Source of the DNA: Brachybacterium sp. SGAir0954
GTDB lineage: Bacteria; Actinomycetota; Actinomycetes; Actinomycetales; Dermabacteraceae
Reading direction: 5' to 3'
NCBI RefSeq assembly: GCF_005490785.1
Contig: NZ_CP027295.1
Span: 186,001 to 250,000, forward strand
Length of the DNA stretch: 64,000 nucleotides
Part shown: positions 19,267-37,227 of the stretch, piece by piece
Position numbering within the stretch: position 1 is the stretch's first letter
Layout: each line of letters starts with the position of its first letter
The notes under the pieces: model-generated
The model's database searches: none
Told to the model about the DNA's origin: nothing
What the model saw: the letters and a program-made list of their open reading frames with translations, nothing else
Program-made: the position numbers and the translations under genes

Positions 19267-19310
19267 GGGGTCCGTGTCCTTCCGTCGTCCGTCATCCGTC
19301 GGGCCGGCGC

Positions 19311-20135: not shown

Positions 20136-20160
20136 GGTGGGCCTTCCGGGGAGTGCGGTG

Positions 20161-21255
20161 TCAGGCGGACGCGAGATCGGGCTGCGCCTCGAAGACGTCC
20201 TGCAGGAGGGTGGGGTCGAAGAAGGTGGAGGCGTCGACCTCGTGCCCGGCGAGCGCGAGCAGCTCGACGTTCTTCTGCGCGAGCTCGTCGGAGATCGTGA
20301 GCAGGCCGGAGGCGGCGGTCTCGTCGCTGACGACGAGCTCGTTCTGCGCCCTCGCCTGTCGCGTCTCCTTCTCCGGGTCCAGGCCCTGGTCCTTGCCGTA
20401 GACCTCGTAGGCGAGGCGGGCGGACTCCTCGGGGTCGGCGAGGGCGTCCTTCCAGCCGCGGACCTCCGCGGTGAGGAAGGCGAGGAGCTCCGCGCGGTGC
20501 TCCTCGATGTTCTCCCGGGTCGTCACGAACGCCCCGGAGACGAAGGGCAGGCCGTTCTCGGCGAAGGGGAGGTTCACGACGTCGATCCCGGCGAGGGCCA
20601 CGGTGACGGCCTCGTTGGTGAGGGTGCCGATCTGGCCGTCGACCTCGCCGTTCATGAGGGGCTGCGGGTCGAACTGCACGGTGACCTTCTCGACGTCGGC
20701 CGGGTCGATGCCGTGCACCTGCAGGAGCGAGGAGAAGAGCACCTCGTTGGTGCCGGTCGCGACGCCGATCCGCTTCCCCACGAGATCCGCCGGGGAGGAG
20801 ATCGGGTTCTGCGCGGTGGAGTAGATGGTGAAGGGGTTGCGCTGGAACTTCGCGCCGATGAGCACGAGCGGCGCCTCCTCCTCCGCGACCATGGAGCCCG
20901 CGGCGAGCGGCGTCGTCATGCCGACGAGGGCGGAGTCGGAGAGCACCATCGCCTCGGAGGAGGTGCCGCTGGGGCCGCCGGGCACGAGCGTGACGTCGGA
21001 GAAGCCGGCCTCGACGTAGTAGCCGCGGGAGTCCGCGAAGTACTCGCCGGCGAACTCGGTGGTGCGGATCCAGTTCTGGTTGACCGTGAGGGCGCCGAGG
21101 TCCTCGCCGGCGGCCGCGGCGGTCCCGCGGGAGCAGCCGGCGAGGGCGAGCGCGGAGGCGGCGACGGACCCGGCCAGGAGGGTGCGACGCCCCGTGAGGA
21201 GTCGGCCCGTGGCGCGGCCGGCGGCAGCGTGGGTCGGGGTGCTGAGCGGGAGCAT
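20161..21255 (-). CDS. NMT1/THI5-like substrate-binding lipoprotein (importer operon)
   Basis: This 364-aa protein is the binding component of the adjacent importer. It has a signal peptide with lipobox LALAGC (Cys near residue 41) and NMT1-family features: [18 protein letters not shown] near the N-terminus, [10 protein letters not shown] and [11 protein letters not shown]. It is clearly paralogous to the protein at 29180-30262 along its whole length, yet only this copy has a full transporter beside it. It is first in an operon reading left to the deaminase at 15183. The upstream region holds a GlnR-like box. Confidence 0.92.
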
Positions 21256-21354: not shown

Positions 21355-21392
21355 GTTTCGCCAGGGGTGCGCTCCTGTTTCCGCCGCGTAAA
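21355..21392 (-). promoter_or_regulatory. Candidate GlnR-type operator
   Basis: GTTTC occurs at 21355-21359 and 21377-21381 (22 bp apart), and GTAAA at 21388-21392, exactly 11 bp after the second GTTTC. Read on the minus strand this is TTTAC-N6-GAAAC with a further GAAAC two helical turns on. It matches the alternating GTNAC-N6-GAAAC layout known for GlnR in Streptomyces. A further GAAAC at 21416-21420 lies on the side of the divergent gene. Confidence 0.5.
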
Positions 21393-21503: not shown

Positions 21504-22169
21504 GTGGAACGACAGGATCATCAGGACCCGCAGCGCCGGACCGCGCGCGCCGCCTCCTTCGGCGTGCAGATCCCCGACTGGGTCGAGGAGGAGGTCGCCG
21601 CGCTCGGTGCGGCGCCCGCCGGCGACGGACCGGAGGCGCGGGTGACGCTCATGCGCCTGCTGAACCGCCTCGCCTCGCGGAACATGCACGAGGGCGGCGG
21701 CGGGCCGTTCTCCGCGCTCGTGCGGGACCCCGCGAGCGGGGAGATCGTCGCCGCCGGGGTGAACCGGGTGCTCGACTCGGGGCTCTCCTCGATGCACGCC
21801 GAGGTCACGACCCTGTCCCTCGCGCAGGAGCGGCGGGGCGGCTGGGACCTGGGGGCGGAGGGCTCCCCCGCGCTCGAGCTGTGGGTCAACTGGCGCCCGT
21901 GCGTCATGTGCTACGGCGCGACGATGTGGTCCGGCGTGCGGCGCCTGGTGATCGCGGGCGAGGGCCCGGAGGTCGAGGAGCTCACGGGCTTCGACGAGGG
22001 CCCCATGCCCGAGGACTGGGCGGGCCGCTTCCGCGAGCGCGGCATCGGGGTCGAGGTGGACGTGCTGCGCGACGAGGCGATCGCGGTGTTCCGCGAGTAC
22101 CGCGCCCTCGTCTCCCGCGGCGGCGCCACGGTCTACAACGCCCGCGGCACCGGCCTCAACGCGGGCTGA
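21504..22169 (+). CDS. Nucleoside/guanine deaminase-like zinc enzyme
   Basis: This 221-aa protein has the cytidine/guanine deaminase zinc signature: HAE in SSMHAEVTTL and PCVMC about 50 residues later, with an upstream ASRNM..GGGGPFSA block as in guanine deaminases. The GTG at 21504 follows GGGAGG at 7 nt and is preferred to an in-frame ATG nine codons upstream. Context makes guanine or a related purine base the likely substrate. It is divergent from the importer operon and its 3' end overlaps the xanthine dehydrogenase gene by 14 bp on the other strand. Confidence 0.8.
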   Translation: MERQDHQDPQRRTARAASFGVQIPDWVEEEVAALGAAPAGDGPEARVTLMRLLNRLASRNMHEGGGGPFSALVRDPASGEIVAAGVNRVLDSGLSSMHAEVTTLSLAQERRGGWDLGAEGSPALELWVNWRPCVMCYGATMWSGVRRLVIAGEGPEVEELTGFDEGPMPEDWAGRFRERGIGVEVDVLRDEAIAVFREYRALVSRGGATVYNARGTGLNAG

Positions 22170-25038
22170 GCACCCCCGCCTCGCGCATGGCGAGGTAGAG
22201 GCGGTCGCGGCCCAGCGGCAGCGTGGTCATGCGCACGCCGATCGCGTCCCGCACCGCGTTGGCGAGGGCGGGCGCGACGGCCGTGTACGGGCTCTCGCTC
22301 ATGGACTTCGCGCCGAGCGGTCCCAGGCGGTCGCTCGTGCTCGCGAAGAGCACCTCGGTGGGCGGGACGTCCGCGAGGGTGGGCACGTGGTACTGCCGCA
22401 GGATGTCGGTGCGCACACGGCCGGCGTCGTCGACGACGACCTCCTCGTACAGCGCCGCCCCGAGCGCCTGCGCGGCCCCGCCCTGCACCTGGCCGCGGCA
22501 CTGCAGGGGGTTGACGACGAAGCCGGCGTCCGCCGCCTGCACGCTGCGCAGGATCCGCAGCTCGCCGGTGGCCCGGTGCACCGCGACGCGCACGCCGTGC
22601 ACGTTGAAGGCGACCGAGCGGGGCGAGCCGTCCCAGTGCGCCTCCGCCTCGAGCGTGCGGCCCGCGGCGCCCGCGGAGGCGGCGAGCTCCGCCCAGGTGA
22701 CGAACCGGCCGCTCGGTCGATGGCGCAGCCCCGCGGTCTCCCCCGCCCAGTCGCCCGTCGCGGGGTCCGGGCCCGCCGCGCCGCCCTCCACGGGCTCCGG
22801 GCCCGCGGTCCCGCCCGTCGCGCCCTCGCCGGCGAGCACGGCGTCCGCCTCGGCGGCGAGCACGCGCAGCAGGGCCTGCGCCGCGTGCAGCGTCGCCTTC
22901 CCCGCCACGACCGTGCCGGCGGAGCCGTAGGCGCCGGTGTCGTGGCCGACGAGAGCCGTGTCCGACTGCCGGATCCGGATCCGCTCCGGCGCGCAGCCGA
23001 GCGCGGCGGCCGCGAGCTGCACGTGCACCGTCGTGGTGCCGTTGCCGAACTCGGCCGTGCCCACGCGCACCTCGAGGGTGCCGTCGCGGTCGAGCAGGAC
23101 CCGGCTGTGGGAGAAGTGCCCGCGCGGGGGCACCGTGTCCAGCATCGACAGCGCCACCCCGGTGCCGCAGGCCCACTCCGGGCCCGGCCCGTCCGCGCCC
23201 CCGTCGGCCGTGCCGGCTCTGTCGACAGGAGAGGCGAGCGCCTCCTCGACGAGGTCCAGGCACTGGTCCAGGCCGTAGCTGCCGTACTCGACGTCCGCCG
23301 CGGGGACCGGGGAGGTCGAGATCATCGGGTCCCCCTCACGGATCACGTTGAGGCGCCGGAACGCGATCGGGTCGAGGTCCAGGGCGCGGGCGAGCTCGTC
23401 CATCGCGGACTCCACCGCGAAGGCCGTCTGGCTGAGGCCGTAGCCGCGGAACGCGCCCGAGGGCACCGTGTTCGTGTAGACCACCTCGGCGTCCACCGCC
23501 TTCGCGGGGCAGCGGTAGACGGCCAGGCACTCCCCCGTGCCGTGGTACATCGTGCCGGGGCCGTGGTTGCCGTAGGCGCCCGTGTCCGAGAGCAGGCTCA
23601 GGTGCAGGGCCGTGAGGCGGCCGTCGGCGTCCGCGCCGGCCCGCACCCGGATCCGCATGGGGTGGCGCACCGAGGTCGAGGTGAACTGCTCGCTGCGCGT
23701 GTGCTCGAGCTGCACGGGACGTCCCGTGCGCAGGGTCGCGAGGGCGACGAGGTCCTCGGTGAACACCTCCTGCTTGCCGCCGAACCCGCCGCCCACGCGC
23801 GGGGCGATCACCCGCACCCGCTCCTCGGGCAGGTCCAGCAGCCGCTGCAGGGTGCGCTTGGCGAGATAGGGCACCTGGGTGCTGCTGCGCACCACGAGCG
23901 TGCCGTCCTCGTCGAGGGAGGCGATCGCGGCGTGCGTCTCGAGGCTCACGTGCTGGACCCGCTGGGTGCGGTACACGCGGTCGGTGACGACGGCGGCGCG
24001 GGCGAGGCCCTCCTCGAGGTCGCCCACCCGCGAGTGCAGCTCCGCGACGAGGTTCGTGGCGGGGTCGGCGATGCCGGAGCCCTCCCCCTTCTCCCCGTGG
24101 AGGGCGGGGCCGGTGCGGGCCAGCTCCGGGTCGGTCACCGCGGGCAGCGGCGCGTAGTCCACGACGAGGGCGCGCACGCCCGCCTCCGCGGCGGCGACCG
24201 AGTCCGCGAGCACCGCGGCGACGCGCTGCCCGACGAAGCGGACGGTGTCGTCGAGGATCCGCGTGTCCAGGGGATCGTCGGCGAGGTGCTCGTGCTGCCC
24301 GGTCGAGAAGAGGGTGCGCGGCGCATCCTCGTGGGTGAGCACCGTGTGCACCCCGGGCACGGCGAGCGCGGCGGTGGTGTCGATCGAGCGGATCCGGGCG
24401 TGGGCGTGCGGGGAGCGCAGGAGCTTCATGTGCAGCAGCCCGGGGAGGGAGCCGGGTTCGACGTCGAGCGTGTAGGGCTCGGTGCCGGTGACGACCCGGC
24501 GGGCGGCGGGGGCGCCCAGGCTGCCGCCGGCCGCGGCGCCCTCCTCGACCCGGGTGACGCCCGCGAGGGCCTCGCGGATCGAGCCGTAGCCCGTGCAGCG
24601 GCAGAGGTTGCCCTTGAGCGAGCGGGGGAGGTCCGCCCGGTCGCCCTCGGTGAGCGCGGCGGCGGTCATGATCATGCCGGAGGTGCAGAACCCGCACTGG
24701 AAGCCCTGCGCACAGCGGAACGCCGTCTGCACCGGGTGCTCGACGGGCGCCTCGGTCCCGGACGTCGCCCGATCATCGGCGGCGGTCGCCGCGAGGCCGT
24801 TGATCGTCGTGACCTCGCGGCCCGCGGCGCGCACGGCGGGGACGACGCAGCTGTGCACGGGGCGGCCGTCCAGGTGCACGGTGCACGCGCCGCAGTCCCC
24901 GCCGTCACAGCCCTTCTTCACCCCGAGCCGGCCCAGGTCCCGCAGGTAGGTGCGCAGGCACTGCCCGGGGCGGGGCGGGGTCGGGGCGGGTGCGCCGTCC
25001 ACGACGGCCGGGTCGGGGACGACGGGGTGGCTGGTCAT
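22156..25038 (-). CDS. Xanthine dehydrogenase, fused 2Fe-2S and molybdopterin subunits
   Basis: This 960-aa protein joins two subunits that are often separate. The first 170 residues are the small subunit: a plant-type 2Fe-2S site (Cys44, 49, 52 and 64) and a second all-helical cluster domain (CGFC ... CRCTG). The rest is the molybdopterin-binding subunit with RVGGGFGGKQE, GAFRGYG and GAKSMSES. It would oxidise hypoxanthine and xanthine to urate. Its start overlaps the xdhC stop by 4 bp. The FAD subunit needed to reach NAD is encoded in another operon at 16638. A low-complexity Gly/Ala insert sits near residue 740. Confidence 0.93.
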   Translation of the reverse strand: MTSHPVVPDPAVVDGAPAPTPPRPGQCLRTYLRDLGRLGVKKGCDGGDCGACTVHLDGRPVHSCVVPAVRAAGREVTTINGLAATAADDRATSGTEAPVEHPVQTAFRCAQGFQCGFCTSGMIMTAAALTEGDRADLPRSLKGNLCRCTGYGSIREALAGVTRVEEGAAAGGSLGAPAARRVVTGTEPYTLDVEPGSLPGLLHMKLLRSPHAHARIRSIDTTAALAVPGVHTVLTHEDAPRTLFSTGQHEHLADDPLDTRILDDTVRFVGQRVAAVLADSVAAAEAGVRALVVDYAPLPAVTDPELARTGPALHGEKGEGSGIADPATNLVAELHSRVGDLEEGLARAAVVTDRVYRTQRVQHVSLETHAAIASLDEDGTLVVRSSTQVPYLAKRTLQRLLDLPEERVRVIAPRVGGGFGGKQEVFTEDLVALATLRTGRPVQLEHTRSEQFTSTSVRHPMRIRVRAGADADGRLTALHLSLLSDTGAYGNHGPGTMYHGTGECLAVYRCPAKAVDAEVVYTNTVPSGAFRGYGLSQTAFAVESAMDELARALDLDPIAFRRLNVIREGDPMISTSPVPAADVEYGSYGLDQCLDLVEEALASPVDRAGTADGGADGPGPEWACGTGVALSMLDTVPPRGHFSHSRVLLDRDGTLEVRVGTAEFGNGTTTVHVQLAAAALGCAPERIRIRQSDTALVGHDTGAYGSAGTVVAGKATLHAAQALLRVLAAEADAVLAGEGATGGTAGPEPVEGGAAGPDPATGDWAGETAGLRHRPSGRFVTWAELAASAGAAGRTLEAEAHWDGSPRSVAFNVHGVRVAVHRATGELRILRSVQAADAGFVVNPLQCRGQVQGGAAQALGAALYEEVVVDDAGRVRTDILRQYHVPTLADVPPTEVLFASTSDRLGPLGAKSMSESPYTAVAPALANAVRDAIGVRMTTLPLGRDRLYLAMREAGVLSPR

Positions 25039-26210
25039 GCGGGGATCCTCCCGTGGAGCGGGCCGGTCGTGGAGCGGAGGGGCTGCGGGGCGGCGCGGCC
25101 GCCGCGCACGGCGACCACCTCCGCCATGACGGAGAGCGCGAACTCCGCGGGGGTCGAGCCGCCGAGGTCGAGGCCGATCGGCGAGTGCAGGCGGTCGAGG
25201 TCGGCGGGGGTCGTGCCCCGCTCGGCGAGGCGTCGCATCCGCTCCGCGTGGGTGCGGCGGGAGCCCATGGCGCCCACGTAGGCGAGGGGCAGCGTGAGGG
25301 CGAGCGCGAGCAGCGGGTCGTCGACCTTCGGGTCGTGGCCGAGGCTGCAGACCACGCTCCGGTGGTCCAGGCGGCCGGCGGCGTGCTCCGCGGCGAGGTA
25401 GCGGTGGGGCCACTGCACCTCGATGCGGTGCGCGGCGGGGAAGCGCTCGGGGGTGAGGAAGGTGGCGCGGGGGTCGCAGACGGTCGTGTCGTAGCCCAGC
25501 AGCCGCCCCTGCTCGACGAGCGCCGCGGCGTGGTCGGTGGTGCCCGCGACGACCAGCCGCGGGGCGGGACGGTGCACGGAGAGGAACAGCTCGGGCAGCC
25601 CCGTCGCGCAGAGCTCGTCGCCCCCGAGCAGACCGGTGCGTCCGGCGGCGACGCCCTCGGCGACCCGGGCGGCGAGCCGGCGCAGGGGAATCCCGTCGGC
25701 CCCGGACGCTCCCCCGCTCCCCGTGCCCGGCTCCTCCGCGAGCAGCGCGGCGAGCGGGGCGCGCCAGGCGACGGGATCGTCCGCGGCGGGCAGCGGGAGG
25801 GCCGCCCTCCGCCCGCGGGCGTCGGTGCGCCACAGCACGGCCGCGGGAGCCTCGTCGAGCAGGGCGGCGAGCCCCGCGGCCTCGGCCCGGTCGCGGACGG
25901 GCTGGACGAGCACCTCGATGCTGCCGCCGCACATGAGGCCCACCTCCCAGGCGGTGTGGTCGGAGTAGCCGTAGCGGCGGCGGTGCGGCCGTCCCTCCGC
26001 GATCACCTCGAGCGCCGTCCCGACGACGTCCGCCTCGACGCAGCCCCCGGAGAGGGAGCCGCGCACGATCCCGCCCTCGGCGACGAGCATCGAGGTGCCC
26101 ACGGGGCGCGGGGCGGAGCCCTCGGCGGCGATCAGGGTCGCGAGCGCGAAGGGGCGGCCGGCGGCGAGCCACTCCTCCCCCGCGGCGGCGAGGCCAGGTC
26201 CGGGGCTCAT
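25035..26210 (-). CDS. XdhC/CoxI family molybdenum cofactor insertion protein
   Basis: This 391-aa protein resembles XdhC, which binds molybdenum cofactor and delivers it to xanthine dehydrogenase. It has the N-terminal GSAPRPVGTSMLV and SGGCVEADVV blocks, MCGG near residue 94, and a C-terminal Rossmann-like half ending in GLDLGGSTPAEFALSVMAEV. It lies in the urate operon and overlaps both neighbours (allantoinase stop and the dehydrogenase start), which fits a dedicated maturation factor. Confidence 0.92.
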   Translation of the reverse strand: MSPGPGLAAAGEEWLAAGRPFALATLIAAEGSAPRPVGTSMLVAEGGIVRGSLSGGCVEADVVGTALEVIAEGRPHRRRYGYSDHTAWEVGLMCGGSIEVLVQPVRDRAEAAGLAALLDEAPAAVLWRTDARGRRAALPLPAADDPVAWRAPLAALLAEEPGTGSGGASGADGIPLRRLAARVAEGVAAGRTGLLGGDELCATGLPELFLSVHRPAPRLVVAGTTDHAAALVEQGRLLGYDTTVCDPRATFLTPERFPAAHRIEVQWPHRYLAAEHAAGRLDHRSVVCSLGHDPKVDDPLLALALTLPLAYVGAMGSRRTHAERMRRLAERGTTPADLDRLHSPIGLDLGGSTPAEFALSVMAEVVAVRGGRAAPQPLRSTTGPLHGRIPA

Positions 26211-27646
26211 GCCGGGGCCCCGCCCCGCCCGGTGAGGAAGCGCCCCTGCGGGACGGCGACCCGCCCGCCCTGCGCGATCACGGCGCCGCGCAGGATCGTG
26301 GTCGTGACCTCGCCGTGCAGGGCCATGCCGTCGTAGGCGGAGATCGGGTTGCGGTGGGCGAGCTCGGCGGCGCGCAGCGTGCGCGCGCGGCGCGGGTCGT
26401 GGAGCACGAGGTCGGCGTCAGCGCCCTCGGCGATCCGGCCCTTCGCGGGCAGGCCCACGAGGTCCGCGGTGGCGGTCGCCATCCAGCGGCTCACCTGCGC
26501 GATGCCCACCCCCCGCTCCTGCGCGTGCGCGGCGACCGCGGTGAAGCCGGCCTGCAGGCCGGAGATCCCTCCCCAGGCCTGTTGGAGGTCCGGGGCGCCG
26601 CGGCGCTTCTCCTCCGCGGTGGAGGGCGAGTGGTCGGTGACGACCGTGTCGATGAGGCCCTCCTGCAGACCCTGCCAGAGGGCGTCGCGGTTGCCGCTGT
26701 CGCGGATCGGCGGGCAGCACTTGTACTCCGGGGCGGCGTCCGGGATGGTCGCCGCGTCGAAGCACAGGTAGTGCGGGCAGGTCTCCACCGTGAGCGGCAG
26801 GCCCTCCGTGCGGGCGGAGGCGATGAGGTCCAGCGCGCGGGCGCTCGAGAGGTGCAGCAGGTGCGTGCGGGCGCCCGTCTCCCGGATCGCCTCGATCAGA
26901 CCGGCGATCGCGGTGACCTCCGCGGCGTCGGGACGGGAGGCCACGAAGTCGGCGTAGGAGGCGGAGGGGACGGCGGGGGCCTGCGCGATCGTGCGGGCGT
27001 CCTCCGCGTGCACGATGACCAGCCCGTCGAAGCGGGCGACCTCACGCATGGCCTCCCGCAGCTGCCGCGCGTCCACGGGCGGGAACTCGTCCACGCCTGA
27101 GGGCAGCAGGAAGCACTTGAAGCCCCGCACCCCGGCGTCCCACAGGCCCTCGAGAGCGCCGGTGTTCCCGGGGACGATGCCTCCCCAGAAGCCCAGGTCC
27201 ACGCGCAGCGCGTCCCGGGCAGCGGCCTGCTTCACGCGCAGCGCGGGCAGGTCCACCGTGGGCGGGACGCTGTTCAGCGGCATGTCCACGAGGGTGGTCA
27301 CACCGCCGAGGGCCGCGGCGGTCGTGGCGGTCGCGAAGCCCTCCCACTCGGTGCGGCCGGGCTCGTTGATGTGCACGTGGGTGTCGACGTTCCCGGGGAG
27401 CACCCGGACCCCGTCGGGGACGCGCAGCTCCTCGCCGGGCGGGGCCGACGGGCCGACGGCCCCGCCGGTCGCGACGGTCGCGTCGGCGCCGTCGAGACGC
27501 TCGATGCGGCGGATCCGCCCGCCGTCGAGGTGCAGCACGGCGGGGACGAGCTCCCCCTCGAGCAGCACCTCCGCCGCGCGGACCGTGCGGATCGTGCGCG
27601 GGAGGGCCGGGGGCGCCGCGGGGCCCGGGAGCGCGCGGTCGGGCAT
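26207..27646 (-). CDS. Allantoinase
   Basis: This 479-aa enzyme hydrolyses allantoin to allantoate. It is a dihydroorotase-type amidohydrolase with the metal motif HVHINEPGRTEWEGF, the carboxylated-lysine stretch GFKCFLLPSG, HAED, LHLSSA, and the DHSPST aspartate. The ATG at 27646 is preferred; an in-frame start at 27679 would overlap the urate oxidase gene by 22 bp and add 11 residues. It sits between urate oxidase and xdhC in the same operon. Confidence 0.93.
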   Translation of the reverse strand: MPDRALPGPAAPPALPRTIRTVRAAEVLLEGELVPAVLHLDGGRIRRIERLDGADATVATGGAVGPSAPPGEELRVPDGVRVLPGNVDTHVHINEPGRTEWEGFATATTAAALGGVTTLVDMPLNSVPPTVDLPALRVKQAAARDALRVDLGFWGGIVPGNTGALEGLWDAGVRGFKCFLLPSGVDEFPPVDARQLREAMREVARFDGLVIVHAEDARTIAQAPAVPSASYADFVASRPDAAEVTAIAGLIEAIRETGARTHLLHLSSARALDLIASARTEGLPLTVETCPHYLCFDAATIPDAAPEYKCCPPIRDSGNRDALWQGLQEGLIDTVVTDHSPSTAEEKRRGAPDLQQAWGGISGLQAGFTAVAAHAQERGVGIAQVSRWMATATADLVGLPAKGRIAEGADADLVLHDPRRARTLRAAELAHRNPISAYDGMALHGEVTTTILRGAVIAQGGRVAVPQGRFLTGRGGAPA

Positions 27647-27657
27647 CGCCGGGGCCC

Positions 27658-28596
27658 TCAGCAGAACCCGCCGAGCCACTCCCAGGCGGCAGGCGCCTCG
27701 GGCTCCCCGTCACGGACCACCGCCGCCTGCATGAGGCCGTAGGGGCGGTCGCCGGCGACGAACACCTCGTTGTCGTTGCCGAGCTCGAACGGGGAGAGGT
27801 CCACGAGGTAGTGGTGCTTGTTGGGCATGACCATGCGGATCTCGGCGAGCTCCGGGCGGGCGCCGAGCACGGCCTCGCCGATCGCGAAGAGGCTCTGCTG
27901 GAGGGACAGCGAGTGGGTGGTCGCGAAGGTCTCGAGCAGCAGGGCGCGCACCGCCGCGAAGGTCGCGTCGGGGTCCGCCTCCGGGTCCCGGAAGCGCCAG
28001 CGGGCCGTGACCTCGGTGGCGAGGATGCGGTCCGTGGTCTCCGGGAGGGTCGTGTAGGCGTCGCGCGGGAAGCCGTGGAACTCGCTGCCGGTGGACTTCA
28101 GCACCACGAGGTCCTTGATCCCGCCCACCACGTGCCGCTCGCCGTCCTGGACGGTCACCGCCGCGGTGCGCACCTCGGGGCCCGTGCGGACGAAGGCGTG
28201 GTCGTGGCCGGCGCCGTCCACCTCGATGCGCTCCCAGCCGTGCGCCTCCGCCTCCCAGCGGCCGCCGGTGAGCCAGCTGCCCTGGCCCATGAAGTGGTCC
28301 GCGAGCAGGCCCAGGAACTGCTCGGGCCCGGCCACGCCGTGCTTCTTGGCGAAGGCGTAGACGGTGTTCTTCTGGGTGTCCGTCGCGATCACGCGGGCGT
28401 TGTCCCCGGTGCGGTAGCAGTCCTCGAAGTCGCCGCGGAGCATCGAGGTCACGGTGAGATCGGTGAGGACGTGGCGCGGCGTGGAGCGGTCCACGTGGAC
28501 CAGGCGCACACCGGCCTTCCCGTACTGGTTGGCGCCCAGGGAGATGCCGGTCGCGGCGGGGGCGGTGGTCGTGGCGGGGGCGGTGGTCTCGGTCAT
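27658..28596 (-). CDS. Urate oxidase (uricase)
   Basis: This 312-aa cofactor-independent oxidase converts urate to 5-hydroxyisourate. Uricase landmarks are visible: YGKAGVRLVHVDR near the N-terminus, DNARVIATDTQKNTVYAFAK with the catalytic Thr, the LKSTGSEFHGF block with the substrate-binding Phe, and NKHHYLVDLSPF with the catalytic His. A Thr/Ala-rich leader of about 17 residues precedes the core. The gene starts 1 bp after the hydroxyisourate hydrolase stop, so the two consecutive enzymes are coupled. Confidence 0.96.
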   Translation of the reverse strand: MTETTAPATTTAPAATGISLGANQYGKAGVRLVHVDRSTPRHVLTDLTVTSMLRGDFEDCYRTGDNARVIATDTQKNTVYAFAKKHGVAGPEQFLGLLADHFMGQGSWLTGGRWEAEAHGWERIEVDGAGHDHAFVRTGPEVRTAAVTVQDGERHVVGGIKDLVVLKSTGSEFHGFPRDAYTTLPETTDRILATEVTARWRFRDPEADPDATFAAVRALLLETFATTHSLSLQQSLFAIGEAVLGARPELAEIRMVMPNKHHYLVDLSPFELGNDNEVFVAGDRPYGLMQAAVVRDGEPEAPAAWEWLGGFC

Positions 28597-28597: not shown

Positions 28598-28924
28598 TCA
28601 GCTGCCTCGGTAGGTGGAGTAGGCGAAGGGGCTCAGGAGCAGCGGCACGTGCAGGTGCCCCTGCTCCTCGTCGATGCGGAAGGCGACCACGACCTCCGGG
28701 TAGAAGGTCTCCTGGCCGCGGGCGGCGAAGTAGGCGCCGGTGTCGAAGCGGAGGGAGGCGGTGCCCGCGGGGAGGCGGTCGGGGCCCAGGTCCCCGATCC
28801 GGCCGTCGGCGTCGGTCGCGGCGGAGGCGATCTCGCCGCCGTCCGGGCCCCGCAGGGAGACGGCCACGCCGGCGGCGGGCCGTCCGGTGCCGGAGTCCAG
28901 CACGTGGGTGGTGACGTGGCTGAT
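28598..28924 (-). CDS. 5-hydroxyisourate hydrolase with apparent ATC start
   Basis: This transthyretin-like enzyme hydrolyses 5-hydroxyisourate. It ends in YRGS, the family signature. The family N-terminus with the catalytic His (SHVTTHVLDSG) is encoded, but there is no ATG, GTG or TTG before it in frame. The codon at the expected start is ATC (28922-28924), preceded by AGGAGG with 5 nt spacing. The only canonical start, GTG at 28903, would cut off the THV histidine and has no ribosome site. I therefore call 108 aa starting at ATC. A true AUC start or an ATG-to-ATC error are the options. Confidence 0.85.
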   Translation of the reverse strand: MSHVTTHVLDSGTGRPAAGVAVSLRGPDGGEIASAATDADGRIGDLGPDRLPAGTASLRFDTGAYFAARGQETFYPEVVVAFRIDEEQGHLHVPLLLSPFAYSTYRGS

Positions 28925-28995
28925 GACGACCTCCTGGATCCGACGGCGACGACGCGGCGCGGGCCCTGCGGGCCCGGTCCGCGTCCGGTCCTCCC

Positions 28996-29001
28996 ACGCT
29001 A
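28996..29001 (-). promoter_or_regulatory. Putative -10 element for the urate operon
   Basis: TAGCGT on the minus strand lies about 70 bp before the hydroxyisourate hydrolase start and about 37 bp from the centre of the box at 29023-29049. It is the same hexamer as before the importer operon at 21255. Confidence 0.45.
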
Positions 29002-29022
29002 GGAAGCGGGTGCGGCACCACG

Positions 29023-29049
29023 GTTTCCCCCGTGTAAAACGTGTGTTTC
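29023..29049 (-). promoter_or_regulatory. Candidate GlnR-type operator for the urate operon
   Basis: GTTTC (29023-29027), GTAAA (29034-29038) and GTTTC (29045-29049) follow one another with exactly 6 bp between pentamers. On the minus strand this is GAAAC-N6-TTTAC-N6-GAAAC, the alternating a/b-site pattern of GlnR boxes with one mismatch in the a-site. It lies near -47 relative to the minus-strand TAGCGT. Confidence 0.55.
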
Positions 29050-29068
29050 AGGGGCTCCCCCTGCAGAT

Positions 29069-29106
29069 GTAACCGCGGCGAAACAGGCCGCGGCCCCTCT
29101 TGAAAC
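29069..29106 (+). promoter_or_regulatory. Candidate GlnR-type operator for the orphan binding protein
   Basis: GTAAC (29069-29073), six bases, then GAAAC (29080-29084) is a perfect GTNAC-N6-GAAAC pair. A second GAAAC follows at 29102-29106, 22 bp later. A -10-like TAACCT sits at 29117-29122, putting the pair near -50. Together with the mirror-image box at 29023-29049 it gives one back-to-back operator for two divergent units. Confidence 0.6.
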
Positions 29107-29179
29107 ACACGATCCCTAACCTCGGGCCCCACACCCGCCCGCGGCCCCGCGGCCCACCCACGCGAAGAAGGCGATCCTC

Positions 29180-30262
29180 ATGGAGACCACTCCCGCCCCT
29201 GTCCCTCGCCCCTCCCGGCGCACCGCCCTCGGCGCCGCCGCCGCGTCGATCGGAGCGCTCGCCCTCGCCGCCTGCGGCGGCTCCTCGGACGCCGCCTCCG
29301 GCGCCTCCGACGGCGGCTCCGGGGACTACGGCTCCCTGGACCTGAATCTCTCGTGGATCAAGAACGCCGAGTTCGCCGGCGAGTACCTCGCGGTGGACCG
29401 CGGGTACTTCGAGAAGGCCGGGTTCTCCTCGGTGAACCTCATCGCCGGCGGCCCCAGCGGCACCTCCACCGAGACTATGGTGCTCTCCGGCTCCGCCCTC
29501 ATCGGCACGTCCTCCCCGCTCGGCGTCGCCCCGCTGATCAAGGACGACGAGGCGCCGCTGAAGATCATCGGCACCACCTACCAGAAGAACCCCTTCACGA
29601 TCATCTCGCTCGGCGACGCGACCCCGATCACGACCCTCGCGGACCTCGCCGGGAAGCGGATCGGCGTGCAGGCCGGCGTCAACGAGACGCTCTTCGACGG
29701 CTTCCTCGCCGCGAACGGCATCGAGGCCTCCGCCCTCGAGATCGTGCCTGTGCAGTACGACCCGCAGCCCCTCGTCAACGGCGAGGTCGACGGCTTCTTC
29801 GGCTACCTCACCAATGAGGCGATCACCCTCGAGCTGGACGGGAAGGACGTCGTGAACCTGCCGCTCGCGGACAACGGGCTGCCGTTCATGGCCGAGAGCC
29901 TCGTCGTGACCCAGGAGAGCATCGAGACGAAGCGGGAGGAGCTCAAGGCCGTGCTGGTCGCCCTGATCCGCGGCTGGTCCGACGCCGTCGAGGACCCCGA
30001 GGAGGGGGCGCGGCTCGCCGTCGAGGACTTCGGCAAGGACCTGGGCCTGGACATGGAGAAGGAGACGCGCCAGGCGAAGGCCCAGGTGGACCTCGTCAGC
30101 ACCGACGAGACCGATGCGAACGGGCTGCTGACCATGTCCCAGGACCTCATGCAGAAGAACGTCGACGCGCTCGTCACCGCCGGATTCGACCTCACCCTCG
30201 AGGACTACTTCGACACCTCGCTGCTCGAGGAGGTCTACGAGGAGAACCCCGACCTGCGCTGA
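29180..30262 (+). CDS. NMT1/THI5-like substrate-binding lipoprotein, orphan copy
   Basis: This 360-aa protein is a second binding protein of the NMT1 type, with signal peptide and lipobox ALAAC (Cys near residue 33), a Gly/Ser/Ala-rich linker, and the same landmarks as the copy at 20161 (FAGEYLAVDRGYFEKAGF, GGPSGTSTE, KRIGVQAGVNE, DPQPLVNGEVDGFFG). No permease or ATPase is adjacent. I infer that it presents a second ligand to the importer at 17579-20135. It stands alone between a GlnR-like box and a strong hairpin terminator. Confidence 0.9.
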   Translation: METTPAPVPRPSRRTALGAAAASIGALALAACGGSSDAASGASDGGSGDYGSLDLNLSWIKNAEFAGEYLAVDRGYFEKAGFSSVNLIAGGPSGTSTETMVLSGSALIGTSSPLGVAPLIKDDEAPLKIIGTTYQKNPFTIISLGDATPITTLADLAGKRIGVQAGVNETLFDGFLAANGIEASALEIVPVQYDPQPLVNGEVDGFFGYLTNEAITLELDGKDVVNLPLADNGLPFMAESLVVTQESIETKREELKAVLVALIRGWSDAVEDPEEGARLAVEDFGKDLGLDMEKETRQAKAQVDLVSTDETDANGLLTMSQDLMQKNVDALVTAGFDLTLEDYFDTSLLEEVYEENPDLR

Positions 30263-30349: not shown

Positions 30350-31228
30350 TCAGCGCTGCTCGAGCTCCCCGAGCTCGTCGTAGGCGGCGGTGATCCCGCG
30401 GATGCGGCGCGCGCCGTCGCTCCCCAGGAGGTTGAGCATGCCGTCGGCGAGCAGCGCGACGAGGGACATGGCCGTCGAGTAGCTGTCGAAGGCGCCGTCG
30501 GAGTCGATCGGGCACTCGATCCAGCAGTCCGCTCCGACAGCGTAGGGCCGGGCGGTGCCGTCGCCGATGAGCAGGCAGCGCGCCGGCGAGCGCTCGATCG
30601 CCGCGGCGAGGGCCGGGAACACGGCCGGCCGACGGCGGAACCCGATGAGCACGACGACGTCCTCCTCCCCGATCCCGGCGATCTCCTCCCCCACCGCCTG
30701 CCCGGGCTGCGGCGCGAGGCGCACCCCGTCCCGCGCCTGGATCAGCTGCTGGTGCAGGTGCAGGGCGACGGGGTAGCTGTTGCGCAGGCCCACGACGAGC
30801 ACCCGGCGGGCGCCGGCGAGCAGCTCCGTGCCCGTCCCGAGCGCTCCCCCGCCGAGCACGGTGAGCAGCCGGTCGTGGTTCAGCCGCTCCGTGCGGACGT
30901 GGCCCTCGATGCCCGGGCGCAGTCCCCCCGCGCCCGTGCGGGACGGCGCGGCGAGCGGGGTGCCCGACTGCCGCATGGCCCGTGTGTGCTCCTTGACCTC
31001 GCGGAAGTCCGCGAAGTCGAGCTTGCGGAACAGGCGGCTCACGGTGGCCTTGGAGACGCCGGTCTCGCGGCTGATGTCCGCCGCGCTGAACACGGCGAGG
31101 TCGCCCAGGTGCTCGAGGAGGAAGTCGGAGATCCGCCTCTCCTGCGGCGTGAGCTCGCCGTAGCGCGCGTCGATGCGGGCGTCGATCCGGGGCCCGGTGA
31201 GGACGGAGGTCCCGGTCCCGGCGCTCAT
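30350..31228 (-). CDS. RpiR-family transcriptional regulator
   Basis: This 292-aa regulator has an N-terminal helix-turn-helix (about residues 25-100, with SAADISRETGVSKATVSRLFRKL as the recognition part) and a C-terminal SIS sugar-isomerase-type ligand domain (VLVVGLRNSYPVALHL, then VVLIGFRR). RpiR proteins usually bind phosphosugars, but members near allantoin genes respond to purine breakdown products. It is third in the aminotransferase-allantoate hydrolase operon, overlapping the preceding gene by 4 bp. It is the obvious local regulator of the island beside the proposed GlnR control. Confidence 0.9.
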   Translation of the reverse strand: MSAGTGTSVLTGPRIDARIDARYGELTPQERRISDFLLEHLGDLAVFSAADISRETGVSKATVSRLFRKLDFADFREVKEHTRAMRQSGTPLAAPSRTGAGGLRPGIEGHVRTERLNHDRLLTVLGGGALGTGTELLAGARRVLVVGLRNSYPVALHLHQQLIQARDGVRLAPQPGQAVGEEIAGIGEEDVVVLIGFRRRPAVFPALAAAIERSPARCLLIGDGTARPYAVGADCWIECPIDSDGAFDSYSTAMSLVALLADGMLNLLGSDGARRIRGITAAYDELGELEQR

Positions 31229-32507
31229 CGCCGGTCCCCTCCCTCGGGCGCCCCGGTCCCGGACCGCGCGACCTCGAGCACCGCCGCCTCGAGCGCCTCG
31301 AGCGCGAGGGCGACGTCCTCCGTCGTGACGGACTCGTCGGGGTGGTGGCTGATGCCGTCGGCGCAGCGCACGAACAGCATGCCCACGTCGGTGATCGCGG
31401 CGAGGGCCATCGCGTCGTGCCCGGCGCGCGAGAACAGCTCCGGCGGCTCCGGGTCCCCGGTCGCCCGGATCCCCGTGCGCACCGCGTCCATGAGCCGCGG
31501 GGCGCAGCGCACGGCGGGCGCCGCATGGATCTGCTCGACCGTGAGCTCGAGGCGGCGCCCCGCGCAGAAGCCGCGGATCCGCTCGAGGACGAGGTCGAGG
31601 ACCTCGTCGCGCAGCGCATCGGTCTCCGCCCTCAGGTCCAGGGACATCTCCACGCGTCCGGGGACGACGTTGACGCCGCCGGGGAAGGTCTCCAGGCGGC
31701 CCACCGTCGCGATCGCCCCGTGCTCACGGGCGATCTGCTCGATGTCGAGCACCGCCCGGCTCGCCCCGATCAGCGCGTCGCGGCGGCGCTCGTAGGGGGT
31801 GCCGCCCGCGTGGCGGGCCTCGCCGGTGACGGTGAGGGCGAAGCGGCGGGCGCCCGCGATCGACGTGACCACGCCGAGCGCCCGATCCGCCTGCTCGAGG
31901 TACGGGCCCTGCTCGATGTGCACCTCGAGATACCCGGCGAGATCCTCGGGGCGCAGGGCCGCCTCGCCCACCCGCCCGGGGTCGAGGCCGAAGTCCTGGA
32001 AGGCCTGCTCCATCGTGGTGCCCTCGGCGTCGGCCAGGGCGAGCCATCCCGGTTCCCAGGTCCCGGCGAGCGCGCGGGACCCCAGGAGCGTCGCCCCGAA
32101 GCGGGTGCCCTCCTCGTCCGCGAAGGCGGCGACCTCGAGGGCGAAGGGCAGCTCGTGGGCGCGGTCGCGGAGCCGGGAGACGGCCTCCACGGCGAGCAGC
32201 ACGCCGAGGATGCCGTCGTAGCGGCCGGCGTCGGGCACCGTGTCGAGGTGGGAGGCGAGCAGCAGGGCGGGCAGCCCGGGGCGGCTCCCCTCGAGCCGGC
32301 CCCGCCGGTTGCCGGCGGCGTCCTGCCAGGTGCGCATGCCCGCCGTGGTGACGAGCTCGGCGGCGAGCGCGTCGTGGCGGGCGTGCTCGGGGGTGAGGTA
32401 CGTGCGCTCGATGCCGTCCTCGCGGGCGGAGATCGCGGCGATCCGGTCGCAGTCCGCCATGATCCGGCGGGCCGCCTCGAGCGCCTCGGCGGAGGGGGCG
32501 AGGCGGG

Positions 32508-32511
<4 letters not shown>
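31225..32511 (-). CDS. Allantoate amidohydrolase (M20 family)
   Basis: This 428-aa metallo-amidohydrolase releases ammonia and carbon dioxide from allantoate to give ureidoglycine. M20 metal ligands are visible: HLDTVPDAGRYDG, ADEEGTRFG, HIEQGP, and the late HHPDESV histidine. The related N-carbamoyl amino acid hydrolases share these motifs; the purine context decides for allantoate. The ATG overlaps the aminotransferase stop and the stop overlaps the RpiR start. Confidence 0.9.
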
Positions 32512-33752
<1,241 letters not shown>

Positions 33753-33796: not shown

Positions 33797-33823
33797 CGAA
33801 ACAGACGTTTCACGCGTGTTTCG
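33797..33823 (-). promoter_or_regulatory. Palindromic operator upstream of the aminotransferase operon
   Basis: CGAAACA at 33797-33803 and TGTTTCG at 33817-33823 form a perfect 7-bp inverted repeat over 27 bp, with a further GTTTC at 33807-33811. GTTTC-ACGCGT-GTTTC again shows the 11-bp pentamer period seen before the other island operons. It is about 45 bp from the start codon, so either RpiR or GlnR could be the binder; the symmetric part would suit RpiR. Confidence 0.5.
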
Positions 33824-33919
33824 TCCACGGTTCCGTCCCGCGAAGATTGCCCTGCGCAGGCGTGATGCGCCGGTCCCGGCCGCGGGACGCGGGCGGAATG
33901 ACCGTTCCAGCCCCGCCGC

Positions 33920-34420
33920 TCAGGCGGGGACGAGGGCCTCGAGGCGCAGCAGGGCGATCTGCCGCAGCTGCTCCGCGCGCTCGCTCCGCTCCTGCTCCTC
34001 GTCGAGCGCCAGGCGCCGCTCGAGCTCCGCGAGCATCTCCGCCTGCGAGCGGCCCGCGGCGCGGATGAGGAACACGGTGCCGAAGCGCCCCTCGTAGCGG
34101 GCGTTCGCGGCGACCCAGGCGCCGGGGTCCTCGACCCCGGCCTGCTCGGCGCGCGAGTGCGCGGCCTCCACCGCCGCGAGCCCCTGCGCCCGCTCCCCGA
34201 TCCGCGGATGGTGCGCGAGCGCGCCGCGGACCTCCGCGGCGGTCCACTCCCCGGCGAGCGCGGAGGCCGTGCCCCGCAGCTGCTCGACGTCCGCGTAGGG
34301 GCGCCCGGCGAGGATCGCCCCGGTCCAGCGGTCGATCGGGGCGCAGGCGCGCAGCGGATCCTCGAGGTCCGCGGCGGGCGCCGTGTTGAACTGCGCGAGG
34401 GTGAGGCTGCTCGGGCTCAT
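33920..34420 (-). CDS. 2-oxo-4-hydroxy-4-carboxy-5-ureidoimidazoline (OHCU) decarboxylase
   Basis: This 166-aa all-helical enzyme converts OHCU to (S)-allantoin, the third step after urate oxidase. The family pattern is intact: FNTAPAADLEDPLRAC at the start, the catalytic HPRIGE near residue 70, and YEGRFGTVFLIRAAGRS near 110. It is last in an operon with the AtzH-amidase fusion and formamidase, not beside urate oxidase. Its ATG lies within the stop region of the amidase gene (4-bp overlap). Confidence 0.95.
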   Translation of the reverse strand: MSPSSLTLAQFNTAPAADLEDPLRACAPIDRWTGAILAGRPYADVEQLRGTASALAGEWTAAEVRGALAHHPRIGERAQGLAAVEAAHSRAEQAGVEDPGAWVAANARYEGRFGTVFLIRAAGRSQAEMLAELERRLALDEEQERSERAEQLRQIALLRLEALVPA

Positions 34421-36036
34421 GGGGTCTCCTCGAGGGCGGCGGCGAGGTGGATCAGCTCCACGTCGGAGCCGGCGGGCCCCACCAGGGTGACACCGGTGGG
34501 CAGGCCCGCGGCGGTGCGCAGCGGGACGGTGACGGCGGGCAGGCCGGCGAGGCCCGCGAGGCAGGTCAGGCGCAGGGTCCGCTCGCGCTGGGCCTCGATG
34601 AGGGGGCCGCCGGCCGCGGAGTCCCGCAGCAGCGGCGCCACCGAGGAGGCCGCCGGCACCACGAGCACGCCGCCGCCGAGCCGCCCGCGCACCTCCTCCG
34701 CGGCGACGGCGCGCACCTCGCGGGCACGGCGCTCCTGCTCCGCGGTGACGGTGCGGGCGGTGCGGAAGCGGGCGGCGACGTCCGGGCCGAGGTCGCCCTC
34801 ATGGACGCGGACCCAGTCGCCGTGCGCCTGCCACGCCTCGCGCGCCTGGATCGTCCGGAAGGCGCCCAGCCATGCGGTGTGGGCCGCCTCGTCGATCGCG
34901 GCGGCGCGCTCCATGCGCCGGCTCCCGGCCCAGCGGCGCAGTGCCGCGTCGATCGCCTCGGCGACGTCGCCGTCGGCGAGCTCCACGAGACCGGGCACGG
35001 TGCGCAGGGCGGCGCCGGCGAGCATTCCGGCCCTCCCCGTCCCGGCCGCGGCGCCGTCGACGTCGTGCAGCAGCACGTCGGCGGCACGGGCGAGCGGCCC
35101 GGGGGTGCGCGCGAGCAGGCCCACGGTGTCGAAGCTCGGCGCGAGCGGCAGCAGCCCGTCGCGGGGGACGGCGCCGTGGGTGGTGCGGATCCCCCACAGC
35201 CCCTGGTAGGCGGCGGGGACGCGGATCGAGCCGCCCGTGTCCGTACCGAGGCCCAGGCTCGCGTGCCCGAGGGAGACGGCGCTCGCGGAGCCGGAGGACG
35301 AGCCGCCGCTGATGCGGTGCGGGGCGCGGGGGTTCGGCGGGGTGCCGTAGTGCGTGCTGGTGCCGGCGAGGCTGTAGGCGAGCTCGTCGGTCGCGGCGAT
35401 CCCGGTGACGGCGGCGCCCGCGCCCAGCAGCGCCTCGACCGCGGCGGCGTGGCGGGGCTCCGGGGAGGCCTCCGCGAGCCGGGCGGGGTTCCCGGCGCCG
35501 ATCCGCTGGCCGGCGACGGCGAACAGGTCCTTGACCGCGACGGTCTCCCCCGTGAGCGGGCCGCCCTCCGTGGTGGCCGGAACGAGCGGGGTGCCCACCA
35601 CCCGCCAGATCCGACGGTCCAGCGCCGGCGCCGCGACCGCCACGTGCGCGACGGCGACCTTCCAGCCGCCCTCGCCGCGCTCCCACACCTGGGTCTGCTG
35701 GCCGCGGCCCCCGCGCAGCAGCTCCGTGATCGCGACGACGACGGCGTGCCGCTCGCCGAGCGCGCGCACCTCGACGCGGACGATGCGCCGGGCCGGGGCG
35801 CCGCCGCGCCCGCCGCGGAAGGAGCTGATCGCCTCGTGCCCCACGAGCAGACCCGCCGCGTCGCCGCGGAGGGTGTCCGGGCCGGGGGCGAAGAGCGCGT
35901 CGAGGGTCGGGAGGTCGTCGGCCATGAGGGCCGTCTCGTAGGCCCAGAAGGCGTCCATGAGCCCGGGGACATCCGGGCCGTGGGGCACCGGCCGGGCCTC
36001 CGCGGCGACCGGTCCCGAGCCGCCGTCGGCGCTCAT
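34417..36036 (-). CDS. AtzH-like domain fused to an amidase-signature amidase
   Basis: This 539-aa protein starts with a small SnoaL-like domain (about residues 20-140) of the AtzH/DUF3225 type known from cyanurate/allophanate loci. The rest is an amidase-signature domain with the Ser-cisSer-Lys triad: Lys in VAVKDLFAV, GGSSSGSAS, and GTDTGGSIRVPAAYQG. The family hydrolyses small carbonyl-amides such as allophanate. In this operon (formamidase before it, OHCU decarboxylase after it) a ureido or oxamate-type intermediate of purine breakdown is plausible but not shown. The GTG/ATG overlaps on both sides indicate coupling. Confidence 0.85.
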   Translation of the reverse strand: MSADGGSGPVAAEARPVPHGPDVPGLMDAFWAYETALMADDLPTLDALFAPGPDTLRGDAAGLLVGHEAISSFRGGRGGAPARRIVRVEVRALGERHAVVVAITELLRGGRGQQTQVWERGEGGWKVAVAHVAVAAPALDRRIWRVVGTPLVPATTEGGPLTGETVAVKDLFAVAGQRIGAGNPARLAEASPEPRHAAAVEALLGAGAAVTGIAATDELAYSLAGTSTHYGTPPNPRAPHRISGGSSSGSASAVSLGHASLGLGTDTGGSIRVPAAYQGLWGIRTTHGAVPRDGLLPLAPSFDTVGLLARTPGPLARAADVLLHDVDGAAAGTGRAGMLAGAALRTVPGLVELADGDVAEAIDAALRRWAGSRRMERAAAIDEAAHTAWLGAFRTIQAREAWQAHGDWVRVHEGDLGPDVAARFRTARTVTAEQERRAREVRAVAAEEVRGRLGGGVLVVPAASSVAPLLRDSAAGGPLIEAQRERTLRLTCLAGLAGLPAVTVPLRTAAGLPTGVTLVGPAGSDVELIHLAAALEETP

Positions 36037-37127
36037 CGGCCCACCCCCGCGAGGTCCTCGACCCGGATGCGGGCGTGGACGCCCTTGACCACGTCCACCA
36101 CCTGCGAGATGTCGAAGTCCGTGGCGGCGCTGAGGTAGGCGTAGGCGTGCTCGGGATCGAGCCCCCAGCGGGCCCCGAGCAGGGCGATCGCCGCCCGCAC
36201 GCACTCCTGGACGGCCACGTCGAGGTCCTCGTCCATGCCGGTGGGCACCAGGTACCGGGAGGTCTCGGCGAGCGGCCCGGCGAGCTCCCCGAACCGCTCG
36301 AGCGCGTCCTCCCGGGCGATGACCTCGAAGCGCAGGCGGCTGCGCAGGCTCGCCTCCATCGCCGTCAGCGCGACCTCCCCGTCCCCCTGCGCGAAGTGCG
36401 GGTCGCCCACGTAGGCGAGGGCACCCTCGACCTGCACCGGCAGGTAGAGGGAGGAGCCGGCGGTGAGCAGGTTGATGTCGATGTTGCCGCCGTGGCGTCC
36501 GGGCGGCACCGAGTGCGGCCGCTCCACCTCTGCGACGGCGACGCCCATGATCCCGAGGAAGGGGCGCAGCGGGAAGCGGATCGTGCGCTCGGCCCCCTCG
36601 CGCGGGGCCATGGTGCCGAGCAGGGCGCCGTCGGCCCCCTCCTCGACCCCGGCGAAGACGCTCACCGCACCCGCGCCTCGCGGGTACTCCCCCGGCAGCG
36701 CGCCGCGTCCGTGGCGGTTGGAGACCACGCCGTAGGGGACGCGCAGCGCATGGTCCACCACGGTGATCCGCAGCAGGTCGCCGGGGAGGGCGCCGTCCAC
36801 GTGGATCGGCCCGGTGACCACGTGCGGGCCGTCGCGGCCGGGGTCGCGGTCCGGGTGCCCGGCGGCGATCGCGACCGCATCCGGGAGCACCTGCTCGACG
36901 TCGACGCCGTGCGCGGCGAAGAAGCGGCGCGGGTCCCGGCCCTGGTCCTCGAGGATGCCCTCGTGGCTCACCGTGTCCAGGACCGCCTCGTCCCCGCTGC
37001 GCAGGCGCAGCACCGGGGAGTCCGCGGCGCAGGGCAACCGGCCCCACAGGCTCGTGGTCTCCTCCGCGGGGAGATAGGCGATGCCGTCCGGCAGGTCCTC
37101 GCCGGGGCGCAGGATGGGTGTCCGCAT
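36033..37127 (-). CDS. Acetamidase/formamidase (FmdA/AmdA)
   Basis: This 364-aa enzyme of the FmdA family splits formamide or short amides to ammonia and acid. Family landmarks are VTGPIHVDGALPGDLLRITV, GGNIDINLLTAGSSLYLPVQVEGAL near the middle, and GDPHFAQGDGEVALTAME. It is first in the operon with the AtzH-amidase and OHCU decarboxylase. A GlnR-like box lies 40-55 bp upstream, which fits a nitrogen-scavenging role. Start ATG follows GAGGAGG. Confidence 0.92.
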   Translation of the reverse strand: MRTPILRPGEDLPDGIAYLPAEETTSLWGRLPCAADSPVLRLRSGDEAVLDTVSHEGILEDQGRDPRRFFAAHGVDVEQVLPDAVAIAAGHPDRDPGRDGPHVVTGPIHVDGALPGDLLRITVVDHALRVPYGVVSNRHGRGALPGEYPRGAGAVSVFAGVEEGADGALLGTMAPREGAERTIRFPLRPFLGIMGVAVAEVERPHSVPPGRHGGNIDINLLTAGSSLYLPVQVEGALAYVGDPHFAQGDGEVALTAMEASLRSRLRFEVIAREDALERFGELAGPLAETSRYLVPTGMDEDLDVAVQECVRAAIALLGARWGLDPEHAYAYLSAATDFDISQVVDVVKGVHARIRVEDLAGVGR

Positions 37128-37182: not shown

Positions 37183-37227
37183 ACGCCCGTGCCGCCCGGG
37201 TTTCGCGAGGTCGATAGCGTCCGGGGC

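Follow-up and report, generated by a model that had tools for sequence, protein, structure and literature searches.

One question raised by this locus is whether the gap between the divergent genes for a HIUase and an NMT1-type binding protein is controlled by GlnR, as the initial annotation had proposed, and which other genes would share that control. The window (the whole stretch of DNA analysed, 64,000 nucleotides) holds a purine cluster around this gap and a glnR-like gene 0.8 kb beyond the cluster. The genes concerned are the following:

15183..21255, minus strand: binding protein 2 genes (PF09084, PF00005, PF00528, PF00941, PF01979), with NMT1-type binding protein 2 (20161-21255), an ABC ATPase (19311-20135), permease frames, a xanthine-dehydrogenase-type FAD domain and an amidohydrolase (15183-16562)
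22156..25035, minus strand: xanthine dehydrogenase-type molybdoenzyme, start uncertain (PF02738, PF20256, PF01315)
25035..26210, minus strand: XdhC-type protein (PF13478, PF02625)
26207..27679, minus strand: allantoinase (TIGR03178, over the cut-off)
27658..28596, minus strand: uricase (TIGR03383, over the cut-off)
28598..28924, minus strand: HIUase, transthyretin family (PF00576), probable ATC start at 28924
29180..30262, plus strand: NMT1-type binding protein 1 (PF09084), the sole plus-strand gene there
30350..31228, minus strand: RpiR-type regulator with HTH_6 and SIS domains (PF01418, PF01380), candidate owner of a palindrome described below
31225..33752, minus strand: allantoate amidohydrolase (31225-32511) and class-V aminotransferase (32508-33752)
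33920..37127, minus strand: OHCU decarboxylase (33920-34420), AtzH-like/amidase protein and FmdA-type amidase (36033-37127)
37930..38640, minus strand: glnR-like gene, 236 aa, candidate binding protein (PF21695 and PF00486, over the cut-off)

The HIUase frame used in the initial annotation was right, whereas its start appears to be the ATC at 28924 (minus strand). AGGAGG lies 5 nt upstream of this codon, and the identical ATC is present in G017, the one genus relative found with both the divergent gene pair and GlnR. Downstream of the candidate transcription start, no in-frame ATG, GTG or TTG was found ahead of THVLD, a conserved HIUase motif; in a survey of starts, 58 of 62 HIUase matches had an ATG or GTG at the motif or up to 11 codons upstream of it. 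The two NMT1-type binding proteins (20161-21255 and 29180-30262) are paralogues. Binding protein 1 has no ATPase or permease of its own and may therefore work with the transporter encoded at about 17.6-20.1 kb.

Direct reading of the gap located all six pentamers where the initial annotation had put them: GTTTC (29023-29027), GTAAA (29034-29038) and GTTTC (29045-29049) on the left, and GTAAC (29069-29073), GAAAC (29080-29084) and GAAAC (29102-29106) on the right. The third GAAAC of the right array lies 22 bp past the second, and the in-phase slot between them (29091-29095) reads CGGCC. Arrays were scored over four pentamers in 11-bp steps, with GTNAC and GAAAC alternating, on both strands, up to a maximum of 18. 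The elements found in the window, together with the candidate -10 hexamers of the gap, are:

29012..29049, minus strand: left array, HIUase/uricase promoter, GAAAC-N6-TTTAC-N6-GAAAC-N6-GCCGC, last box degenerate
28996..29001, minus strand: candidate -10 of the HIUase/uricase operon, TAGCGT, 10 nt beyond the left array; TAGCGT in G017 too
29069..29106, plus strand: right array, promoter of NMT1-type binding protein 1, GTAAC-N6-GAAAC-N6-CGGCC-N6-GAAAC
29117..29122, plus strand: candidate -10 of binding protein 1, TAACCT; TAGCGT in G017
21355..21392, minus strand: third array, upstream of NMT1-type binding protein 2 and the ABC transporter, TTTAC-N6-GAAAC-N6-GCACC-N6-GAAAC
37167..37204, minus strand: fourth array, upstream of the FmdA/AtzH-amidase/UraD genes, GAAAC-N6-GGCAC-N6-GTAAC-N6-GTAAA
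33798..33833, minus strand: weaker element, upstream of the class-V aminotransferase, GAACC-N6-GAAAC-N6-GAAAC

The left and right arrays scored 15/18 each, with one degenerate pentamer apiece, and are separated by 19 bp, 2 bp out of mutual phase. Two four-phase 11-bp arrays appeared in none of 5000 shuffles of the 255-bp intergenic region, and at least one array in only 1 of 5000; the left pattern GTTTC-N6-GTAAA-N6-GTTTC occurs once in the 3.41-Mb genome. The claim of two separate GlnR-type arrays in the gap was thus borne out. The boxes were also kept in G017, which carries the same genes, as the initial annotation had demanded of a close relative: 30/30 box letters are identical between the window's own genome (G000) and G017, compared with 129/206 positions in the rest of the gap (the two hexamers within that rest agree at 10/12), and the three good boxes of each array are unchanged. 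When the box set was slid to 149 other offsets, at most 29 letters were identical. Pentamers are short and each array contains a degenerate box, so that a chance resemblance to GlnR boxes had to be considered; contradicted by both the shuffles and the conservation, it was ruled out at the sequence level and its probability is negligible.

The initial annotation had described the boxes of this gap. Its boxes stood, and arrays were found at a minimum of four cluster promoters: only four places in the window reached at least 15/18 (29069 on the plus strand; 29049, 21392 and 37204 on the minus strand), and all of them precede purine-cluster operons, fronting the urate operon, the gene for binding protein 1, the transporter genes that include binding protein 2, and the amidase operon. 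Under a first-order Markov null, 0.0067 such places are expected per window, and four were reached in 0 of 300 simulated windows. A 14/18 array, GCTAC-N6-GCAGC-N6-GTGAC-N6-GTAAC, was also seen at 61877-61914 (minus strand), just upstream of a minus-strand frame (60933-61865).

Each array had been described as lying near -50 from a plausible -10. This is more precisely expressed as an exact register, with the distance counted from the last in-phase pentamer. This pentamer ends 10 nt ahead of TAGCGT in the left array (29016-29012, minus strand, degenerate GCCGC) and 10 nt ahead of TAACCT in the right array (29102-29106), while the third and fourth arrays are followed by N10 and then TAGCGT (21344-21339, minus strand) and TAGGGT (37156-37151, minus strand), respectively. 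The exact N10-TANNNT register was present in 10/10 arrays of G000, G017 and a third genome of the genus, G002; in the four arrays of G017 and the two of G002 the sequence is N10-TAGCGT throughout. The weaker aminotransferase element (33798..33833) showed no TANNNT in register; its GAAAC-N6-GAAAC is kept in G017.

The same register was sought in 80 named uricase loci. All occurrences of GTNAC- or GAAAC-N6-GAAAC were taken, without regard to any -10, and TANNNT was counted at distances of 0-44. This gave 30 sites in 24 of the 80 loci; no exact direct repeat was present in the other 56, one of which (L013) is the uricase locus closest to that of the window. Both spacings were enriched, with GTNAC-N6-GAAAC counted 19 times against 2.1 expected and GAAAC-N6-GAAAC 11 times against 0.26, and 26 of the 30 sites lie within 400 nt upstream of a matched gene start on either strand (3 are inside genes and 1 is unassigned). 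TANNNT stood at exactly 10 nt in 14 sites and at 32 nt (10+22) in 5, the mean being 0.58 per spacing; these 14 cannot count as independent, Curtobacterium contributing 5 and Nocardioides 4. Thirteen of these 14 were matched to a gene: an aminotransferase in 8 cases, a xanthine dehydrogenase in 4 and an OHCU decarboxylase in 1. Around 510 isolated GAAAC words, the commonest TANNNT distance was 21 (10+11), with 11 cases against a mean of 2.0. A weight matrix trained on the 10 cluster arrays and applied to the named loci gave 31 hits of at least 15, where 2.7 were expected, a count that includes overlapping registers of single sites (e.g. in L016 and L013). GlnR was over the cut-off in 48 of the 50 tested genomes behind the 80 loci. 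Five Nesterenkonia genomes have GlnR, and their loci show the palindrome described below and no exact direct repeat. The genomes behind L039 and L088 have direct-repeat sites, yet no GlnR over the cut-off; as metagenome assemblies, these two may lack part of the genome.

The best reading of this layout is a class-II-like (PhoB-type) geometry of the promoters behind the arrays. The Pho box of PhoB consists of 11-bp direct repeats (8-bp boxes with a 3-bp linker) placed 10 bp before the -10 (PMC1906773); repeat length and distance are the same here, whereas the words (GTNAC/GAAAC), the regulator and the signal are different. With the 10+11n register as a simple rule, promoters activated by GlnR could be sought in actinobacterial genomes that lack annotation.

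The protein encoded at 37930-38640, which had been proposed as GlnR, was confirmed as a member of that family. It scored 90.2 bits against the Pfam profile GlnR_1st (cut-off 27) and 102.4 against Trans_reg_C (cut-off 26.2), and its best matches among solved structures were 8hih, 8hig and 8hml. The copies in G017 and G002 are 80% identical to it. The stretch GGTRTVDVHVRRLRAKLG, which we take to be the recognition helix, was compared in 18 of the 24 GlnR rows: 14 have it unchanged, and the other four carry a single V-to-I change. Compared with GlnR of 21 genomes outside the genus, the DNA-binding domain is 71-82% identical and the receiver domain 33-44%. The receiver keeps the Asp of the DA/DG motif, and the position aligned here with Arg-52 is Thr in G000, G017 and G002 as well as in G094, a family member of another genus. 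In a tree of all 24 rows the three genus sequences formed one group on a long branch, whose position beside G094 was weak (72/20).

Its identity held, but it cannot be regarded as a global regulator for the whole genus. At E<=1e-30 it was found in 3 of the 38 genus genomes (G000, G017 and G002), and no match was obtained in the other 35; among 47 family genomes, GlnR_1st was over the cut-off in these three and in G094, in which purine genes are absent within 40 kb around the GlnR gene. A uricase match was present in 8 of the 38 genus genomes, the window's own included, and the only close one was that of G017 (85%). In G017 arrays were found at all four promoters, with scores of 16, 15, 15 and 14. 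In G002 (L131/L132, G002:C1:2665001-2705000) a deletion running from within the RpiR gene into the xanthine dehydrogenase gene takes out XdhC, allantoinase, uricase, HIUase and binding protein 1; GlnR is still present, and so are the arrays at binding protein 2 and at the amidase operon. The six uricase-positive, GlnR-negative genus genomes contained no array of at least 15 in the stretches scanned (2.5-3.9 kb; 20 kb for G012); L008 has one array of 14. One uricase match, in L007 (G012:C1:1009694-1010545), has 60% identity and one in-frame TAA, with GlnR absent and arrays absent nearby.

The pattern GWNAC-N6-GWAAM-N10-TAGNGT occurred in the same 3 of 38 genomes as GlnR and in no others, whereas the looser GTNAC-N6-GAAAC-N17-GAAAC, with one mismatch allowed, hit these three and also the GlnR-negative G036. 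The co-occurrence of arrays and GlnR within the genus is partly one fact, because cluster, GlnR and arrays travel together, and it is confounded with the presence of the whole cluster. The arrays of the three genomes are homologous, and the promoters of the two binding proteins may go back to one duplication.

Another OmpR-family regulator with similar 11-bp repeats, of the MtrA, PhoP or AfsQ1 type, might own the arrays instead, as MtrA overlaps GlnR boxes in Streptomyces. In the same genus PhoP competes at GlnR sites (PMC10704036). Against such a regulator, the box-N6-box-N10-TAGNGT arrangement is confined to the three GlnR-bearing genomes, in all of which the GlnR gene lies near the purine cluster. 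MtrA-type regulators are expected throughout the genus. Moreover, the words match GTNAC/GAAAC and not the Pho box, the consensus of which is of the GTTCACC type. Ownership by such a regulator was judged improbable.

A second motif was found in the same loci, the palindrome GAAAC-N4-GTTTC. It occurs 18 times in the 80 named loci (36 when both strands are counted, where 0.30 would be expected per spacing), and an RpiR homologue accompanied it in 12 of 16 palindrome loci, compared with 7 of 64 loci without it (kinship uncorrected). In the window a perfect copy lies before the aminotransferase gene (33798-33811), where the final GAAAC of the weaker element doubles as half of GAAAC-GTCT-GTTTC (33811-33798; one change in G017), and copies with one mismatch lie at 29036-29049 and 21346-21359. 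This raises the question of whether the GAAAC/GTTTC words are simply halves of an RpiR operator, the 11-bp spacing being incidental. The enrichment of the palindrome, its link to RpiR homologues and the window copies are in keeping with that idea; the direct repeats, however, are enriched separately and showed no clear association with RpiR (8 of 24 loci with a repeat against 11 of 56 without, p 0.25), and neither the right array nor the array at 37204 contains a palindrome, even with one mismatch allowed, in a scan of the window. The gap holds no perfect palindrome, only the one-mismatch copy (29036) inside the left array. Furthermore, in 10 of the 18 palindromes one half also belongs to a direct repeat, which better fits two regulators on one composite site than one regulator. 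As a full account the single palindrome was ruled out, the direct repeats being enriched independently, and there is little probability in the words being RpiR half-sites throughout. The palindrome was kept as a second motif, probably owned by RpiR to judge from their co-occurrence; given the perfect copy at 33798 and the one-mismatch copy in the left array, part of that array may therefore serve RpiR. An RpiR gene and a palindrome before the aminotransferase gene are features shared with RpiR operators of other purine clusters, whereas the arrays reported here are a separate element that the palindrome overlaps at some promoters.

From the family of the protein and the layout of its putative sites, we infer that the arrays would be operators of the GlnR encoded 0.8 kb past the cluster. 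GlnR boxes are known to alternate as a-b-a-b with n6 gaps, the a2 site sometimes being dispensable, and in the activation complex four GlnR domains are arranged head to tail (PMC10704036, PMC5826061). By analogy with that complex, the protomers would bind head to tail, one per pentamer, in 11-bp steps. An array that ends 10 nt before the -10 therefore extends from about -60 to -23, across the -35 position, and GlnR would activate in the PhoB-type (class II) manner. At the divergent arrays one regulator would switch on the urate operon simultaneously with the gene for binding protein 1, the remaining arrays would serve to turn on the paralogous transporter and the amidase genes, and the signal would presumably be nitrogen shortage. 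RpiR of the cluster would probably add a substrate-type control through the overlapping palindrome. That the cluster-linked GlnR would activate purine catabolism through arrays at class-II-like promoters was given a probability of roughly 80%.

GlnR might instead bind and repress, or the two arrays of the gap might form one looped or shared control unit and not two independent activators. GlnR does repress some genes (PMC4140684), and the small separation of the arrays and their 2-bp offset would suit a shared unit. Repression sits poorly with the 10 nt to the -10, which is the geometry reported for the PhoB Pho box (PMC1906773), and with the finding that urate use by Mycobacterium smegmatis needs GlnR (PMC4222082). 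We regard these variants as unlikely, and activation at separate promoters was retained.

The initial annotation knew of no study placing purine catabolism in Micrococcales under GlnR. No report of GlnR control of urate use in that group was found in the open-licence literature, in which broader topics were covered in part, and the terms uric, xanthine, purine and allant occur nowhere in the text of a GlnR study in S. venezuelae (PMC3087709, word search). For actinobacteria at large, GlnR control of urate use is already known: growth of M. smegmatis on uric acid requires GlnR (PMC4222082), and nitrogen limitation induces its uricase, transthyretin and OHCU decarboxylase genes (PMC4617892). In M. 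smegmatis GlnR is global, and the operator layout at the urate genes is not described in the parts of those reports cited here (PMC4222082, PMC4617892). What appears to be new is the combination of ordinary GlnR words, an unusually strict promoter register and a GlnR that is an accessory of the purine cluster. The GlnR system of Streptomyces, Amycolatopsis and Mycobacterium (gTnAC-n6-GaAAC) and the one described here have in common the pentamers, the 6-bp gaps, the four-site arrays, the tolerance of a degenerate a2 and the recognition-helix stretch; here, in contrast, GlnR adjoins a catabolic cluster, is absent from most of the genus and has a diverged receiver domain, and the amtB and glnA loci have no arrays.

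At the amtB-glnK locus and both glnA loci no four-box score of at least 13 was found, a threshold that degenerate sites could escape; one two-box site of score 8 lies about 1 kb away from a glnA. Because the amtB and glnA loci have no arrays, there is no independent training set from the own genome. GlnR of the genus would no longer be general, ammonium uptake and glutamine synthesis appearing to be beyond its reach, and the findings are most simply read as a GlnR whose role has shrunk to the scavenging of purines and, perhaps, of other organic nitrogen. More tentatively, and with odds well below even, it may be a mobile or relict pathway-specific purine regulator with a rewired receiver, perhaps answering a purine-derived or other signal, which at some promoters would use a composite operator jointly with an RpiR repressor, under AND-type control. 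If this is true, the last GlnR box would be half of the RpiR palindrome, and both nitrogen shortage and substrate would be required. The overlap of an array with a palindrome that tracks RpiR suggests a way in which nitrogen status could be sensed jointly with the supply of purines. A 2023 review (PMC10704036) called the nitrogen signal for GlnR unknown, and a genus in which GlnR is dispensable, would serve one pathway and is altered mainly in the receiver could offer a small natural system for studying receiver sensing.

Own-genome sites outside the purine cluster were weaker ones only (C1:171135 and C1:130717). A genome-wide search with the GTNAC-first pattern and up to three mismatches returned three places, two of them within the purine cluster. 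Two-box words (up to one mismatch) occurred at 159 places against 59 for the reversed control and are weak evidence when taken alone. GAAAC-N10-TANNNT occurred at 6 places, two of them in the purine cluster, and at none for the reversed control. Two others, C1:1850560 and C1:2540644, were set aside because the sequence upstream of them contains no good box. A GAAAC-N21-TAGCCT upstream of the deaminase gene (from 21416) was also dropped, being absent at that place in G017. At C1:171135 a weaker, two-box site, GTAAC-N6-GAAAC-N10-TAGCGT, stands upstream of genes encoding a ferredoxin-reductase-like protein and a flavodoxin, and TTGAC-N6-GAAAC-N10-TACGCT was found at the start of a P450 frame at C1:169618. 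The surroundings of these two sites (L178, G000:C1:160001-180000) contain P450, MFS transporter, ferredoxin reductase-like and flavodoxin genes. The weaker four-phase site at C1:130717 (L138/L179) has a degenerate third box and the hexamer CAAGCT; downstream of it lie genes for two BPD_transp_2 permeases and a PnrA/Bmp-type binding protein, that is, an ABC transporter of the purine nucleoside type.
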